Positions 30,717 through 47,049 are shown, counted from the first letter of the stretch. The stretch: 47,049 nucleotides of DNA from Candidatus Poribacteria bacterium (GCA_022822085.1 JAJECK010000154.1:1-47049), one strand, 5' to 3'. The notes: generated from the letters alone by a model not told the origin. Made by a program: numbers and translations.

Positions 30717-30938
30717 ATGGTACAAGTAGAAGTAGAAGTATCTTCAGATGAAACATTTGATAGGGCACTTGCCCGTTTCAAAAAAATGTGTGGAAAAGCG
30801 GGTGTTGTGACTGAGATCAAAAAACGCAGTTTTTATGAAAAACCGAGTGAAAAGCGTCGCCGTATTGAACTGAAACGCCAACGTAAAGTCAAACCCCGAA
30901 CAACGGAATACCGCCCGCGCTACGATAACAATAGATAA
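30717..30938 (+). CDS. rpsU: Small ribosomal subunit protein bS21
   Basis: A 73-aa basic protein of the 30S subunit platform, where it helps initiation. The sequence (VEVSSDETFDRALARFKKMCGKAGVVTEIKKR split over the N-terminal half, then RRRIELKRQRK) is typical. I chose the ATG at 30717, eight nt after AGGAGG, rather than the GTG six bases earlier. A perfect consensus promoter precedes it. The next gene, a dsRNA-binding protein, follows after 21 nt with its own AGGAGG and shares the terminator at 31514. Confidence 0.95.
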   Translation: MVQVEVEVSSDETFDRALARFKKMCGKAGVVTEIKKRSFYEKPSEKRRRIELKRQRKVKPRTTEYRPRYDNNR

Positions 30939-30959: not shown

Positions 30960-31502
30960 ATGACCTTTCAGGACGTTGTGGAACCTGATGATAACTACAA
31001 AGGACTTTTAATTCAATACTGTCAAGAACGCGGATTGAGTCAACCTCGATTCACTGAAACACAACACGGCACACCAGACGCTCCCAGTTGGAAAGTGACT
31101 GTACATTATGGCGACAGAATACACGAAACGATCGACCCAATCCCGGGGGCAAAGAAGGGGGCTCATCAATTCGCCGCAAAACAAGTGCTCGATTCAATAA
31201 ATGAAAATCGCCAACGCCTGTTGACAGGTGATGTAGACACTGAAGACGATAGTCAAGGTGGTATTGTCCAAGATATGGTTGAAGAGATACAGGCACTAAC
31301 CGAACCACTTGATGTCCCATTGCCACTTGTTACAAGCACATTGACGATAGCAAATGAACGACTGAGTGCCGCGCAACCTACTCGCTATCGTTCTATTTCT
31401 GACACCGAATTCTCGCGGAAAGTGGCACAACTCACCATGCAGATCGTGAGAGATTTGGTGAAAGCGGCGGATGAAGCGAATATAAAGTTTCCACAGACGT
31501 AA
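30960..31502 (+). CDS. dsRNA-binding domain protein downstream of rpsU
   Basis: A 180-aa cytoplasmic protein. Residues about 11-80 match a double-stranded RNA-binding domain: NYKGLLIQYCQERGLSQPRF, the strand SWKVTVHYG and the final helix GAKKGAHQFAAKQVL with the lysine pair that contacts RNA. The rest (85-180) is acidic, then helical, and unknown to me. Outside RNase III, such domains are uncommon in bacteria, and no nuclease domain is present. Co-transcription with rpsU suggests a role in translation or rRNA/mRNA handling (inference). Confidence 0.8.
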   Translation: MTFQDVVEPDDNYKGLLIQYCQERGLSQPRFTETQHGTPDAPSWKVTVHYGDRIHETIDPIPGAKKGAHQFAAKQVLDSINENRQRLLTGDVDTEDDSQGGIVQDMVEEIQALTEPLDVPLPLVTSTLTIANERLSAAQPTRYRSISDTEFSRKVAQLTMQIVRDLVKAADEANIKFPQT

Positions 31503-40744: not shown

Positions 40745-40807
40745 GGCGGGGCTCAGTGCCCGCTTTCGAAAAAATACAAATAAAAACGACGGGCACGCAG
40801 ACCCGCC
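40745..40807. repeat. GGCGGG..GTGCCCG extragenic palindrome
   Basis: GGCGGGGCTCAGTGCCCG (40745-40762) pairs with CGGGCACGCAGACCCGCC (40790-40807), with three mismatched positions, around a 27-nt AT-rich loop. It lies between the RseB-like gene stop and the dienelactone hydrolase start and may end the sigma-factor operon. Confidence 0.65.
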
Positions 40808-40832: not shown

Positions 40833-41906
40833 TTACTTAGGATCTTTTTTAAGGATGATAGACTCTACGACCTTCAGCAATTCGTCAGATGGCAGTGGAC
40901 CAATAAGATAGAAATTAATACCTGAACTCGACCATCGGAATACATAGTCCTGACCACGTGGATAATTATGTACCGAAATATCTCCAATTTTCTTTACTAC
41001 TCTGTCACTGTTTCTATCTCCACGATTCGGCGGTCTATCGTTTGTTTCAGATCTTATTTCATCTGGCGATTCAAATATGCTGAAATCCAACAAACCATCT
41101 GTATATTTCAAGCGAATCGGACGATATTTTCTAATTTGAAGTTTCGATATGTCCTGAAGTTGGAAACCTACGGGTAGGTATGTAGGTTGGATTGGTTGCT
41201 TCTTGAGGATTTTTTCAGCTTCACCAAGCGTAATAGTAGGACGGTTATGACCAGGTTCCGGATTAATTTCCTTCTTAAGAACTTCCCATTTGGATTCTAC
41301 TGTTTTGGGTTCAAAACTAATGCGGTTATAAACGAACATATTCCGTAGAATGCCGGCAGCATCTAAATCCTCAACACGTAAGATAACACCATTTTTTCGA
41401 GCAAAATAGATATGTTTTGTAGGTCTGCCATCATGCTTTGGATTAATGATCAGAAGATCGGTCTCATGACCAGCGATCTTTTCTCCCCAATGTCTAAGTT
41501 CTAACACATAGTTTTGTGCGATCAATTTTATTTCTTTTGGAGAAAATTGGCTTCTGTGACGCACCCATCTAAATTCTCTGCTTCTTCTACGCTCATCTCT
41601 ATTTCTGTTATTGTCGTCATGCTGCCTTTCACGGGCATTCTCCTCCGATAACGATTTGGGACCACCAACAATGGATACAATCTTACGATAAGAGTTCTCC
41701 GCTGTTTGATGAATGACTAACTCCTCCATCGTCCGAGAACCGTTAGACGTACTGTATGTCTTCAGACGTAGACCGATGTAAACAACATCCTGTTCCGCTT
41801 CCGCGATACGCTCAAGCGTCCCAATATCCGCAAAAAGCCAACTGGATGTCAGGACAAAGACAATTAATGTAAAGCAGTAATACACAAATATCGGTTTCAA
41901 TTGCAT
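40833..41906 (-). CDS. RseB/MucB-like envelope-stress regulator
   Basis: A 357-aa exported protein (signal peptide 8-26). Residues about 30-210 recall the lipoprotein-like N-terminal fold of RseB/MucB (YIGLRLKTYSTSNG at the start; later GHETDLLIINPKHDGRPTKHIYFARKNGVILRVE). Residues about 250-350 resemble the C-terminal RseB/DUF4367 part (PTYLPVGFQLQDI). A basic, Arg/Asn-rich insert (residues 92-115) is odd. It follows the anti-sigma gene after 34 nt. In E. coli RseB protects the anti-sigma factor from cleavage, and the same arrangement suggests the same role here. Confidence 0.75.
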   Translation of the reverse strand: MQLKPIFVYYCFTLIVFVLTSSWLFADIGTLERIAEAEQDVVYIGLRLKTYSTSNGSRTMEELVIHQTAENSYRKIVSIVGGPKSLSEENARERQHDDNNRNRDERRRSREFRWVRHRSQFSPKEIKLIAQNYVLELRHWGEKIAGHETDLLIINPKHDGRPTKHIYFARKNGVILRVEDLDAAGILRNMFVYNRISFEPKTVESKWEVLKKEINPEPGHNRPTITLGEAEKILKKQPIQPTYLPVGFQLQDISKLQIRKYRPIRLKYTDGLLDFSIFESPDEIRSETNDRPPNRGDRNSDRVVKKIGDISVHNYPRGQDYVFRWSSSGINFYLIGPLPSDELLKVVESIILKKDPK

Positions 41907-41940: not shown

Positions 41941-42453
41941 TTAATCATCAAAATATAAATCGAGCAGCGTCTCTGCCCCTTCACCAAGATCCTCAGTTTC
42001 CGTTGCTGGTGTAATAAGAGGTGTCGTAACGTTTGACTTCAACGGATTATTCGCTACATCTTCGGTATGAACTTCAAAATAGAAATCAAGTAGTTCATCA
42101 TATTGCGGGGCAGGTGAAGATGAAAAGAAAATAAACACGAGGATGAAACAGAGTGTTGAAAATGCCGTGGCACCAAAAGTAAAAGGTCGGAACACCCATC
42201 GTTTAAAGATGTGGAGTAACCTGCTGCGTGAGGAAGTCTCTGCTTCTCGTATCTTCGCCAAAACCGCATGCTTCATAGACGGTGCCGGATGCACAAGTCC
42301 AGCGATCTTTTGCCGATTATCTTTGAAATTTGTCAACATGTCCGCACATTCTTCACAAGTGCGCAGATGGGTTTCCACCTTCTTTCGTAATATAGGTGTT
42401 AATTCATTGTCTAAATATGCTGATAAATGTTTCTGGATACTTTGATGTTTCAT
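41941..42453 (-). CDS. Anti-sigma factor with zinc-finger (zf-HC2) domain
   Basis: A 170-aa membrane anti-sigma factor. The cytoplasmic N-terminal part has the HxxxCxxC site (H29, C33, C36 in VETHLRTCEEC) after the typical opening LSAYLDNELTP. A transmembrane helix spans about residues 90-112 (TFGATAFSTLCFILVFIFF), followed by a short acidic outer tail. It should bind the sigma factor encoded 54 nt upstream and release it on envelope stress. Middle gene of the sigma operon. Confidence 0.9.
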   Translation of the reverse strand: MKHQSIQKHLSAYLDNELTPILRKKVETHLRTCEECADMLTNFKDNRQKIAGLVHPAPSMKHAVLAKIREAETSSRSRLLHIFKRWVFRPFTFGATAFSTLCFILVFIFFSSSPAPQYDELLDFYFEVHTEDVANNPLKSNVTTPLITPATETEDLGEGAETLLDLYFDD

Positions 42454-42507: not shown

Positions 42508-43128
42508 TTACCATTCTATACGTTCAAGTTCTTCCTTTAATGCTTTACGTGCCTCATGCAAACGGGATTTGACACGACCAAGTGTGCAGTTCAGCACTTC
42601 TGCTATCTCTTCATAAGACAGTTCACGCAGTTCACGAAGGATCAAGATCGTTCGATAACTCTCTTTCAATCTGTCAAGAGCAGCATGTAGAATTTCGCTT
42701 TGTTCTGTGCGTAGTGCTTCCTGTTCAGGTGTTACATTATCAAGTGGCACCCACGGTTGTGAGTCATCAATTTCCATCGGTTCTGTTTTTCTGCGTTTTC
42801 GCTGATCAATCACATTCAAACATTTATTCTTGACGATACGGTAAAGCCATGTCGAAAATCGCGATCGGAATTTGAAGTTATCAATATTTTGCCATACAGA
42901 GAGGAATGCGTCTTGCGCCGCATCCTCCGCATCTTCATGATGACCAAGTATACCATACGCGATGTTGTAGACCCAATGGTTGTATTGCACAATGAGCGTT
43001 CCCATTGCAGTGGTATCTCTCTCTTGACAACGCAAGATAAGTTCACGTTCCTGTTCAGTATCAAAATCTTCCACTTGTGCAATTTCCGTATAAGTTTCCA
43101 TATCAGCGGTAAGTGTAGTAACGGACAT
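42508..43128 (-). CDS. ECF RNA polymerase sigma factor
   Basis: A 206-aa sigma70-family factor of the RpoE/SigW type. Region 2 (YNIAYGILGHHEDAEDAAQD, then FLSVWQNIDNF and FSTWLYRIVKNKCLN) and region 4 (SYRTILILRELRELSYEEIA, then LGRVKSRLHEARKAL) are complete. GGAGGAG precedes the ATG. It is followed by its anti-sigma factor and an RseB-like protein. Its own promoter (43200-43226) fits ECF consensus, which suggests autoregulation. Confidence 0.94.
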   Translation of the reverse strand: MSVTTLTADMETYTEIAQVEDFDTEQERELILRCQERDTTAMGTLIVQYNHWVYNIAYGILGHHEDAEDAAQDAFLSVWQNIDNFKFRSRFSTWLYRIVKNKCLNVIDQRKRRKTEPMEIDDSQPWVPLDNVTPEQEALRTEQSEILHAALDRLKESYRTILILRELRELSYEEIAEVLNCTLGRVKSRLHEARKALKEELERIEW

Positions 43129-43199: not shown

Positions 43200-43226
43200 T
43201 TAGACATCACATATACAAAAAGGTTC
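43200..43226 (-). promoter_or_regulatory. ECF-type promoter of the sigma-factor operon
   Basis: Minus strand: GAACCT (43221-43226), 16-nt spacer, TCTAA (43200-43204); written as GAAC-N17-GTCTAA. It fits the sigmaE-like pattern and lies 72 nt before the sigma gene. Confidence 0.65.
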
Positions 43227-43259
43227 GTACTTCTTTTGGAGATTTTTTCATGATTGAAG

Positions 43260-45746
43260 TTACCTGTTTTCTTTTCCTGGTGTCATCGGTAAAACTTGAA
43301 ATTCACCGTTTGCATTTGGAAACCTACCAATAGCAGCATCCGTTTCCTGTTGGTCAAAAGCAATGATGTCAATAATCTGATTGTCGTGAGCATCCGTATC
43401 CACGAGCAGCACAGTTTCACCGTTGCGAGACAATTTAAAGTTAGCATGCAGCCCTTCTGTCGCTTTGCCATCTTCATCTAACCATACAATTAAGTACCCG
43501 CGCGCAGGAATCGTAGTCCCTTCGGGGAATTCCCATTTCTTCAAATTGTCAACTTTATCCGTGAGATACATACCCGTAAGCACTACTGGTTTGTCCATGA
43601 TGTTGTGCAGTTCAAGCCAGTCTTCGTAATCACCCTGTGGGTCGGTAATGCTCTTGGTATTAGCAGCCATCAGTTCATTAATGACAACCGTTACCTCATT
43701 TGCACGTGGTGCCATCAGACGGAAATGTGCTGCACCGAATTCCGCATGTGCAGGTGAAAATGTTGTGGTACCGTGTGTCTTGACAGCACTCGCCTCAACA
43801 TAATAATATACCTTTGTCTCCATAGGATAAGCAGGAATGCTACCAACATAACTACCTCTTTCCAATGACATTTCTGTCTGCTGAAAAGGTGCATGCCGGT
43901 CAGTCCCATAATACAACAGAACAGAATCTGCTGCAACGGCATTATCCAATTTGGCAGTTATTTCAACAGGTTGATTAGCTGTAGGGTTGTCTGGAGAGGA
44001 AACAGAGATTATCTTCGGTGTCGGCTTGTTCAATTCAGGATGATTGCGTAGATTATCACTTCGTTGTGTAAAAAATCGCTTGAAACTCGGTGTACGTCCG
44101 CCACGGTCACCATCAACACTCTCCTCAAAACTGGCGTAGTCGTATAGTTTTTTTTCATCTTTCTCAACTTCAGCAGCAATGAGAGTATGGTATTCTTTGA
44201 TGATAGGTTCCATCACCTCCCAATCAAGCCACTCATCTACAACAGTCTTTACATGTGCGATATATCTTGCTTTCCATTCAGGAATTCCGAGTAGGCGACT
44301 AATAACTGGACGCATAACGTTGTCCGCATGTGTTACTGGTGATACCATGCCTGTTGACAGTTCTCCCCACGACCATCCGCCAGGACCTCTGCCTGGACCA
44401 CCACCGCCTCCGCTACGGGCACGACGTTCAGCACCAAATCGGAAAGTTTCATTGTTGTCATGTGAAATCAGGTGAAATCTATCGTTGACATCTTGATAGA
44501 TAGAAAAATCTCCACCTTTGTGTATGTAGCTATCATCATCCATAAAGACGTTTGAGACAGCAAGTTGCCACAGCGCACGGTCAACGTTAAAAATAGATTG
44601 TAAATCTGATCTCAGTTTCTCATCAGGTGTTTTACCGTCAAGCATTTCGCAGAGTTCAATTAGTTTTTCCCAGGGGTTTTCAACATTCGCAGTTTTCAGT
44701 TGATATGTTCTTTGATATTCCTCAACATCGTTCCCAGTATAAGTTAATCCGCCACCGCCGGGACCTACTTTATAACGGATCCCGTCCCTTGTGCCAAACC
44801 ACTCATCCAGAAAGTCCTTGTTATATTGCTGAAGGTTGATATATACACCCCAACTTTCCCCGTTAATCACCAATTTCACAAAGTTCGTTTTCATAGCGGG
44901 AAAATAATCTCGTGCAATCCGATTATATAGCACTTCTCGGAGAAAAGATGCGTCAACATGTCCATTGAGCAGGTTAAGTGTTTTGTATCCGTATAGACGT
45001 TGACTATCATCCCCGTAGTCAATGGCGACATTAAAAGATTTTTTTGCGGATTCAACTGTAAAGTAGGATGAAGTGCCACGAGCACGTACACCAATCTCCT
45101 TATAGACTTTTCCATCAACAACTAAATCTGCTGGAACTTCAACGTCTGTGCGATAAAATGCGTTCAGTTGCGCATACCAATCTTCATCGTGGAAACGCAG
45201 GTATAATGTGCGAAGTGTTCCGGCATCATAGAATGCCGTGGAATCTATTGGTGCTGCAGCAAGGCTATTTTTCACATCGTCTTGAATATCACCGGTAGGT
45301 ATGCCCGCGCGTTGGTCCGGTATATAAGCTTCACCACGTGACTCAAGTGCTGCCTTCCGTTCATCCCCGGTTAATTTACCATCTTTATTGGTATCAAACC
45401 GTTCGACCAGATTTTCCGGAGGGCGAGGACCACGTCTACCTCCTCCGAATCCTTGCGGTGGACCTCCTCCAAATCCAGGTGGTGGACCTCCTCCAAAACC
45501 GGGTTGTGAAACAGGACGAAGTCTTTCAATCTCTTCTTTGCTTAGTTTGCTATCAGAGAAGGCTTCTATATTTGTAACTCGAATCATAACCAAGTTTTCT
45601 TCGGGACTAAGCGTACCATTTCCATCAAAGTCAAACCGTTTCTGATCCTCTGTAAGTCTTGGTGTAGTACCATTATCTTGGGCATAAGCATACGTAACAA
45701 TACATAATATAATGCCGATTAGTAGTATAATTCTTGTCTGTTTCAT
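43260..45746 (-). CDS. Exported CotH-kinase domain protein with EF-hands and lamin-tail domain
   Basis: An 828-aa exported protein (ATG 45746 after AAAGGAG; signal peptide 1-22). Two EF-hand loops (residues 39-50, DFDGNGTLSPEE; 118-129, DTNKDGKLTGDE) flank a Gly/Pro-rich linker with GFGGGPP repeats. Residues about 170-540 are a CotH kinase-like domain (FHDEDWYAQL; GVRARGTSS; KKSFNVAIDYGDD; LLNGHVDASFLREVLYNRIA; SHDNNETF), an atypical protein-kinase fold of spore-coat and cellulosome proteins. Residues about 715-828 are a lamin-tail domain (VVINELMAANTKS...WLELHN). It lies 57 nt after the DUF4956 gene. Confidence 0.9.
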   Translation of the reverse strand: MKQTRIILLIGIILCIVTYAYAQDNGTTPRLTEDQKRFDFDGNGTLSPEENLVMIRVTNIEAFSDSKLSKEEIERLRPVSQPGFGGGPPPGFGGGPPQGFGGGRRGPRPPENLVERFDTNKDGKLTGDERKAALESRGEAYIPDQRAGIPTGDIQDDVKNSLAAAPIDSTAFYDAGTLRTLYLRFHDEDWYAQLNAFYRTDVEVPADLVVDGKVYKEIGVRARGTSSYFTVESAKKSFNVAIDYGDDSQRLYGYKTLNLLNGHVDASFLREVLYNRIARDYFPAMKTNFVKLVINGESWGVYINLQQYNKDFLDEWFGTRDGIRYKVGPGGGGLTYTGNDVEEYQRTYQLKTANVENPWEKLIELCEMLDGKTPDEKLRSDLQSIFNVDRALWQLAVSNVFMDDDSYIHKGGDFSIYQDVNDRFHLISHDNNETFRFGAERRARSGGGGGPGRGPGGWSWGELSTGMVSPVTHADNVMRPVISRLLGIPEWKARYIAHVKTVVDEWLDWEVMEPIIKEYHTLIAAEVEKDEKKLYDYASFEESVDGDRGGRTPSFKRFFTQRSDNLRNHPELNKPTPKIISVSSPDNPTANQPVEITAKLDNAVAADSVLLYYGTDRHAPFQQTEMSLERGSYVGSIPAYPMETKVYYYVEASAVKTHGTTTFSPAHAEFGAAHFRLMAPRANEVTVVINELMAANTKSITDPQGDYEDWLELHNIMDKPVVLTGMYLTDKVDNLKKWEFPEGTTIPARGYLIVWLDEDGKATEGLHANFKLSRNGETVLLVDTDAHDNQIIDIIAFDQQETDAAIGRFPNANGEFQVLPMTPGKENR

Positions 45747-45803
45747 AATAACTCCTTTCACTGTTTCAAGTTTTGACAGCTTATGCACATAAGTGTTCGT
45801 ATT

Positions 45804-46454
45804 TTACTCCTTATCCATTTTGACTTCTACAATGTTTTCATTTGCTGAAAGTTCATTAAAAAACGTAAGCCAATCACTTGGATTTGACAATTTAACCCGA
45901 AAATTCAACTCAACAATCTGTGACTTTTTGATCCGTTTTTCAATCAGACGATCCTGAACAACGTGCTTGTTGAATATCGGACGATATACCGTTTCGGATA
46001 TTTTGTCAGGTGGCATGCAAATTTCAAGCGTAAAATCATCACCTTTATCAAAATATTGATGCCAATGGTACATGCAAAGTATTATTATACCGATAACAAA
46101 TGTTGCAAGTATCGCTACAGCAGGATTTCCAGCACCAACTGCCATGCCGACGGCTAATGCATAAAACACGAAACCGATGTCGCGCGGGTCTTGAATGGCA
46201 GTACGAAAGCGAATAATAGATAATGCTCCGACGAGGCTAAATGCACGAGCAATACTTTCACCGATAACTACCATCACTACCGAAATTAGCATACACAGAA
46301 TTATGAGTGTATTCGTAAAAGCTCTTTGAGGTGCCTTGGTATGTGTCCACTGATAGATAAGTACAATAAAAACACTCAGTGCAAAAGAGAGGAGTATTCT
46401 GAGTATGTTTAAGCCAATCGTATTATACGAGGGCAGCGTTAAAAATTCTGACAA
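45804..46454 (-). CDS. DUF4956 membrane protein
   Basis: A 216-aa protein with four transmembrane helices at about 13-33, 45-65, 83-105 and 108-130, and the conserved loop FSLVGALSIIRFRTAIQDPRDIGFVF that marks DUF4956. The C-terminal 80 residues form a soluble alpha/beta domain. The family is usually encoded beside CotH and VTC (polyphosphate polymerase-like) proteins; only CotH is here. Start is TTG with AGGT about 10 nt upstream; no better start exists. First gene of the DUF4956-CotH operon. Confidence 0.85.
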   Translation of the reverse strand: MSEFLTLPSYNTIGLNILRILLSFALSVFIVLIYQWTHTKAPQRAFTNTLIILCMLISVVMVVIGESIARAFSLVGALSIIRFRTAIQDPRDIGFVFYALAVGMAVGAGNPAVAILATFVIGIIILCMYHWHQYFDKGDDFTLEICMPPDKISETVYRPIFNKHVVQDRLIEKRIKKSQIVELNFRVKLSNPSDWLTFFNELSANENIVEVKMDKE

Positions 46455-46577
46455 AATATGTAATACCTGTATTATTTCATAACAAGTTTCGCTACGGTGA
46501 ACGGATTCGGTAGGAATGTTCTGAGAAAATCCTAACTGTTCCTAAAAGTCAATTCACTAAAAAAACGATATTTGCGC

Positions 46578-46616
46578 ATTATACCAAAATTAGACAAACA
46601 TGTCCAAGAATTGTTC
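46578..46616 (-). promoter_or_regulatory. Overlapping ECF-type and sigma70-type promoters of the DUF4956-CotH operon
   Basis: Minus strand. ECF type: GAACAA (46611-46616), 16-nt spacer, TCTAA (46590-46594), i.e. GAAC-N17-GTCTAA as at the sigma operon. sigma70 type: TTGGAC (46602-46607), 18-nt spacer, TATAAT (46578-46583). The two share the same 40 bp, about 120 nt before the start. The rest of the 46617-46737 gap shows nothing else. Confidence 0.6.
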
Positions 46617-46737
46617 AGAGCCATTCAGTTTTCAAAAATATATTTATGACTGTAATGACTTGTGCTAATTAACTTTTTGTACAACATTGTTTCACATAAG
46701 TTCAATATTCAGTGAGTTTTCCTCATGGCAGATAGGC

Positions 46738-46845
46738 TCTTCAGTCCTGTCCGGACGCAATGTTTATAGTTTGTTGATGGTTAGACAGATATCGTCCGGA
46801 CCAAATCAACGGTATGAATGCCTTTTTGGCATTCCCCGTGACTAA
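46738..46845. repeat. Structured palindrome with CCAAATCAACG linker (second copy)
   Basis: Starts TCTTCAGTCCTG (46738-46749) as in the MITE copy. Inner helix TCCGGACG (46750-46757) with CGTCCGGA (46793-46800), linker CCAAATCAACG (46801-46811), terminal helix GAATGCC/GGCATTC (46816-46822/46828-46834), then GTGACTAAA closing the outer stem imperfectly. It lies 44 nt from the transposase stop. Confidence 0.6.
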
Positions 46846-46888
46846 ACTTACTATTACCCATAAGTTTTTTCGAATAATTCTATAAGAT

Positions 46889-47049
46889 TCATTTGTTGGT
46901 TACTCCCTCTTCTTGTGAGGTATTGAGGATGGCAAAGGCATCAGAAATATCATTCAACCTTTGCCACCCTCGCCAAAGCACCGTCACACCCGGATTGCCA
47001 TCTGATTTTCGTGCTAAAAATCCTCCGAGTTTGGCGATCCAAATGACGA
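46889..47049 (-). CDS. Transposase, C-terminal fragment cut by the window edge (IS4-type)
   Basis: The minus-strand frame entering from the edge gives 52 residues, beginning WIAKLGGFLARKSDG and continuing PGVTVLWRGWQRLNDI, before a TGA at 46889-46891. This is the usual C-terminal end of IS4-family DDE transposases (LGGFLxRKxDGxPG...LWRGWQRL). The catalytic part lies outside the window, so completeness cannot be judged. Confidence 0.8.
   Translation of the reverse strand, partial: VIWIAKLGGFLARKSDGNPGVTVLWRGWQRLNDISDAFAILNTSQEEGVTNK

Follow-up and report, generated by a model that had tools for sequence, protein, structure and literature searches.

The stretch of DNA analysed here (the window, 47,049 bases) comes from a Candidatus Poribacteria MAG (5.63 Mb, 158 contigs) and carries on its minus strand, in this order, genes for a DUF4956 membrane protein, a CotH-like kinase, an ECF sigma factor, a candidate anti-sigma factor and an RseB/MucB-like exported protein. 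The most plausible start of the DUF4956 gene (PF16316; 45804–46454) is a TTG; no in-frame ATG lies near the conserved start, either at 46454 in the window or in relatives (18 loci), though in one relative an in-frame ATG occurs a few codons further upstream. The CotH-like protein (43260–45746, with an ATG start at 45746) combines a signal peptide, EF-hand-like and lamin-tail domains and a CotH domain (PF08757, E = 3.6e-42, 145 bits), and its kinase activity is predicted. A terminator-like hairpin after the RseB-like gene (40788–40807, minus strand) likely marks the end of the transcription unit. Since no terminator-like site is seen in the window sequence between the CotH and sigma genes, the two operons of the original prediction may in fact be one transcription unit. 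All family genomes examined, which represent three genera (here g1, g2 and g3), share the gene order DUF4956-CotH-sigma; a narrower, genus-level set comprised 18 genomes. In many relatives the DUF4956 promoter directly follows an apparent iron-ABC-transporter-type permease gene. The sequence upstream of this promoter in the window (46617–47049, where the contig ends) differs from that of the relatives, which suggests a rearrangement in this genome.

The sigma factor (42508–43128, 206 amino acids) shows the traits of the ECF (group IV) class, with Sigma70_r2 and Sigma70_r4_2 domains above the Pfam cut-off, an adjacent candidate anti-sigma gene and a conserved predicted promoter of its own upstream that is autoregulatory in form. 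Its best phmmer matches in the PDB include 6in7_B (2.9e-29), a chain labelled sigma-H factor that we take to be AlgU, as well as SigW (5e-29) and E. coli RpoE (1.6e-24). The putative anti-sigma factor (41941–42453) has a zf-HC2 zinc finger above the cut-off, with the pattern H-x3-C-x2-C, and one hydrophobic segment that would place it in the membrane. The RseB-like protein (40833–41906) scores above the cut-off for DUF4367 (24.2 versus 22.1 bits) and just below it for MucB_RseB (21.4 versus 22.3 bits).

The sigma and DUF4956 genes had been proposed to share matching promoters, and GAAC-N17-GTCTAA does have exactly two matches in the window, both of them minus-strand, upstream of the sigma gene (43226–43200) and of the DUF4956 gene (46616–46590, promoter P1). 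Dinucleotide shuffles of the window gave a mean of 0.06 matches, and none of 100 shuffles reached two. Relaxing the -10 element to GTCWAA revealed a third site in the cluster, upstream of CotH (45798–45772), which had been missed because its -10 element is GTCAAA. In extended form this CotH promoter (P2, 45772–45799) reads CGAAC-N16-TGTCAAA and the sigma promoter (P3, 43200–43227) reads CGAAC-N16-TGTCTAA. A GTG at 45788, another possible start for CotH, precedes the point where P2 transcripts are expected to begin. A further match to the relaxed pattern, GAACTGAAACGCCAACGTAAAGTCAAA, is found on the plus strand of the window (30867–30893), 67 nt before an ORF at 30960.

Promoters of sigmaE have the -35 element GGAACTTTT and the -10 element GTCAAA (PMC1804206). 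The form CGAAC-N16-TGTCwwA found here agrees with this RpoE-type motif (GGAACTT...GTCAAA) apart from the leading G of GGAAC, which is not retained. In the structure of sigmaE bound to DNA, S172 contacts -34G, R171 contacts -31C and R176 contacts -35G (PMC3397946). The residues at the S172, R171 and R176 positions of the Poribacteria sigma, as read from the alignment, are S, K and E, a combination that would fit CGAAC, which has the G at -34 and the C at -31 but lacks a G at -35.

GAAC-N17-GTC stands upstream of the sigma gene in 38/38 regions from the three genera, and every alignable sigma gene in the genus is preceded by GAAC, 16 variable bases and TGTC, with indels flanking the block on both sides. 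Likewise, AAC-N17-GTC precedes DUF4956 in 35/38 regions and CotH in 28/39 regions, the regions being drawn from three genera in each case; most other spacings of the same words occur in 0–6 regions. P2 has been lost in the subclade of G010, G011 and G014, has no alignable counterpart in G004 and did not appear in either g2 genome. At P2 and P3 the words are conserved and the spacer sequence is variable. Because the spacers of P1, P2 and P3 are unlike one another, kinship of the genomes does not explain the common words and spacing.

Just upstream of the sigma promoter lies CTCCAAAAGAA (43231–43245, minus strand), which most of genus g1 retains, with small differences in its distance from CGAAC. 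In read-through RNA, the Shine-Dalgarno sequence of the sigma gene (ACTTCT..GGAGAT) can base-pair with ATCTCC...AGAAGT, located upstream of P3, and the helix is present in the minimum-energy fold for this genome. A hidden Shine-Dalgarno sequence was rejected nonetheless, as its accessibility across 17 genomes was no lower with the native upstream sequence than with a shuffled one (0.44 versus 0.41) and the pairing element is absent in g3.

We consider it probable that the DUF4956, CotH, sigma, anti-sigma and RseB-like genes together form a local regulon, controlled by an RpoE-like ECF sigma factor that also regulates itself. The sites, their conservation and the gene set can be read directly from the sequence. 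The comparison supports the earlier proposal that this sigma targets DUF4956 and CotH: the sites are conserved across three genera with the spacing AAC-N17-GTC, one of them belongs to CotH itself, and the motif is found mainly in intergenic DNA.

The sites could also be genuine ECF promoters used in part or entirely by another sigma of the same specificity class, the adjacent sigma being one of several; we regard this as improbable, yet as the most serious of the alternatives. Between 22 and 107 ECF candidates were counted per genome at a first look. In g3, a second ECF sigma gene has its own CGAAC-N17-TGTCTAA promoter, mostly N18 when counted from GAAC to GTC (five loci), and in G014 a possibly different ECF sigma gene has a possible CGAAC-N16-TGTCTAA promoter. 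The same words recur before a MacB_PCD/FtsX permease operon, where CGAAC-N16/17-TGTCTAA is conserved ~40–57 nt before the start codon (25 loci). This macB-type site is present in most genomes checked, in all three genera, with a spacer of 17 or 18 depending on the lineage. We weighed macB as a candidate target of the adjacent sigma, but most g3 genomes, as well as G000 and G017, have the 18-base spacer there, as in the second sigma's own promoter. Against another reader of the cluster stands the spacing of the cluster sites, which, including the sigma's own promoter, is N17 in all genera, whereas that of the second sigma is mostly N18. In addition, the sigma gene is physically linked to DUF4956-CotH in three genera. 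The best-matching ECF paralogue group (~39% identity) showed no motif in the stretch examined. It is possible that the two sigma factors are separated by spacer length, or that there is cross-talk between them.

Several other genes are preceded by sites of this kind in subsets of the genomes. A chorismate pyruvate-lyase-like gene (PF01947) has CGAAC-N16/17-TGTCTAA ~25–73 nt before its called start in g1 and g3 (seven loci). Such sites also lie upstream of YCF48/BNR-repeat lipoprotein genes in g3 (three loci) and of an Hsp20-domain gene beside other Hsp20-like genes in g1 (three loci).

The sigma70 box said to overlap the DUF4956 promoter does exist: TGGACA-N17-TATAAT, which matches at 11/12 positions and has a TG ahead of its -10 element, occupies 46606–46578 on the minus strand. 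In relatives the consensus of the region is TTTcAACAWTT-N12-TGTCTAATT-n-TGnTAnnnT. Across 36 aligned promoters, AAC has a conservation of 2.0 bits (the anchoring pattern for the rows includes AAC and TC, so that these columns are bound to reach 2.0), TGTC 1.86 and the extended -10 TG 1.85; the sigma70 -10 positions T1, A2 and T6 reach 2.0 bits each, and the sigma70 -35 region ~0.8. The two regions that failed to anchor belong to G009, which has a P1-type site ~1 kb upstream, and G012, which has none in the stretch examined. Thus TGnTAnnnT is kept in nearly all relatives, while the sigma70 -35 hexamer is not conserved. The suggested dual control is plausible, given that the extended -10 element is conserved together with AAC...TGTC; both promoters seem to be maintained, and they overlap in such a way that a polymerase at either would apparently block the other.

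The base before AAC in P1 is C in 30/36 promoters, G in three and A in three. The GAAC originally noted at DUF4956 is present in this genome but is a local variant shared with a few others; the usual form is CAAC. Accordingly, -34G, the base contacted in sigmaE, is usually missing among the relatives. The usual C at -34 predicts a weaker ECF promoter at DUF4956, for which the sigma70 element could serve as backup. The CAAC form has 17 exact matches in the genus, 12 of them upstream of DUF4956 and one more, in G004, probably so. A separate sigma for this form was considered and rejected, as no second gene recurs among the remaining matches; with CAAC nearly confined to DUF4956 promoters, no other sigma's regulon is seen to share it.

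It might be argued that DUF4956-CotH is simply a sigma70 operon, that a repressor uses the dyad TTGGACA-N4-TGTCTAA, which spans the sigma70 -35 element and spacer, as its operator, and that the ECF likeness is accidental. The sigma70 box is indeed strong, with 11 of 12 positions and an extended -10 element, TGnTAnnnT is found family-wide, and the dyad, imperfect in this genome, is perfect in G014 (TTAGACA-TGTT-TGTCTAA). We disfavour this explanation and judge it unlikely. The left arm is broken in G006 (TTACGTA), where AACAATT and TGTCTAA are retained, and most of it is missing in g3, where AAC...TGTC is retained. Moreover, the dyad leaves unexplained both the AAC conserved 17 nt upstream and the recurrence of this layout at the CotH and sigma genes; by eye, neither of these two sites shows an evident dyad.

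Pattern searches and sampled loci were used for the genome-wide counts. The literal GAAC-N17-GTCTAA has 10 sites in the whole genome, compared to 34 for the reversed control, and six of the 10 lie in coding frames. The genome-wide search that had been proposed with this pattern does find sites, but no enrichment, and we rejected the literal pattern as a detector of the regulon across the genome. For CGAAC-N16-TGTCWWA, 92 matches were found in 18 genomes, with 34 at N20 spacing and 96 for the reversed pattern; the whole-genome count is therefore not above the reversed control, and only the distribution differs. Among 30 sampled loci each, 24 motif sites were intergenic, in contrast to one for the reversed pattern and five for the wrong spacing. 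When the cluster sites were left out, 10/16 were still intergenic versus 5/30 (Fisher p = 0.003, a value that overstates the evidence since the related genomes are not independent). The original prediction would fail if the pattern were equally frequent in coding regions; this is not so for CGAAC-N16-TGTCWWA, though the literal 10-mer of this genome, with its 6/10 coding sites, comes nearer to it. It is position and conservation, rather than the 10-mer count, that lift the sites above chance. That they are mere chance matches of short words in AT-rich intergenic DNA, as the 10 genome sites of the literal pattern, six of them coding, might suggest, is very improbable and largely refuted by words and spacing kept at three non-homologous sites across three genera and by the intergenic concentration relative to two controls.

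If the cluster is the local regulon of the adjacent sigma, it might operate as follows. At rest, the zinc-finger anti-sigma factor in the membrane would hold the sigma, and the sigma70 extended -10 promoter would provide basal DUF4956-CotH transcription. The sigma, anti-sigma and RseB-like gene set points to envelope stress as the signal, which, probably via the RseB-like protein and proteolysis of the anti-sigma factor, would free the sigma. RNA polymerase with the freed sigma would then start at P1, P2 and P3, which have the form (G/C)AAC-N17-GTCwwA. Transcripts from P1 and P2 could also reach the sigma gene, because no terminator-like site lies on the way. We infer recognition by the adjacent sigma, the signal, the proteolytic step and the read-through from this arrangement.

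The wiring of the circuit, with ECF sigma, anti-sigma, RseB-like protein and autoregulation, is of the known RpoE-like kind. As in E. coli rpoE-rseA-rseB and P. aeruginosa algU-mucA-mucB, a sigma that aligns with RpoE and its kin is followed by an adjoining putative membrane anti-sigma gene; the exported protein encoded next is only weakly RseB/MucB-like. Unlike those systems, the Poribacteria cluster encodes an anti-sigma factor with a zf-HC2 zinc finger, its RseB match falls slightly short of the Pfam cut-off in a protein that carries DUF4367, and the proposed targets include CotH and DUF4956. The cluster is also similar to the sigmaW-type regulons of B. subtilis, SigW being among the best PDB sequence matches. 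Such regulons comprise the sigma's own promoter and a set of envelope genes, as the Poribacteria cluster would, but sigmaW reads TGAAAC and CGTA-type elements, unlike the CGAAC and TGTC seen here. With the sigmaE system the cluster shares an autoregulatory promoter of the same form (PMC1804206) and differs from it in the E at the R176 position and in the -35 base, which is not G. In Gram-positive pel clusters, CotH, a polyphosphate polymerase and DUF4956 form an accessory set (PMC7112168), so that a CotH-like kinase and DUF4956 are encoded together there as well. No pel or polyphosphate polymerase genes were seen here between DUF4956 and the sigma operon. The Poribacteria CotH-DUF4956 pair is linked to an ECF sigma instead; no ECF link was found in the text consulted on the pel clusters (PMC7112168).

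CotH and DUF4956 appear to be undescribed as targets of RpoE-like wiring. Our literature search turned up no paper that names both Poribacteria and ECF sigma factors, and a sigma factor regulon has apparently yet to be described for this phylum. An idea that began with two sites in raw sequence became decidable through spacing and conservation among related MAGs. More speculatively, an RpoE-like sigma with three nested promoters may control an exported CotH kinase and DUF4956 and so bring extracellular protein phosphorylation into an envelope-stress response, and two ECF sigma factors may split their targets by spacer length (17 versus 18). The cluster ties CotH-type kinases and DUF4956 proteins to an envelope-stress-type sigma, which makes their role testable, and although the organism is uncultured, the defined promoters lend themselves to tests in vitro or with a surrogate host.
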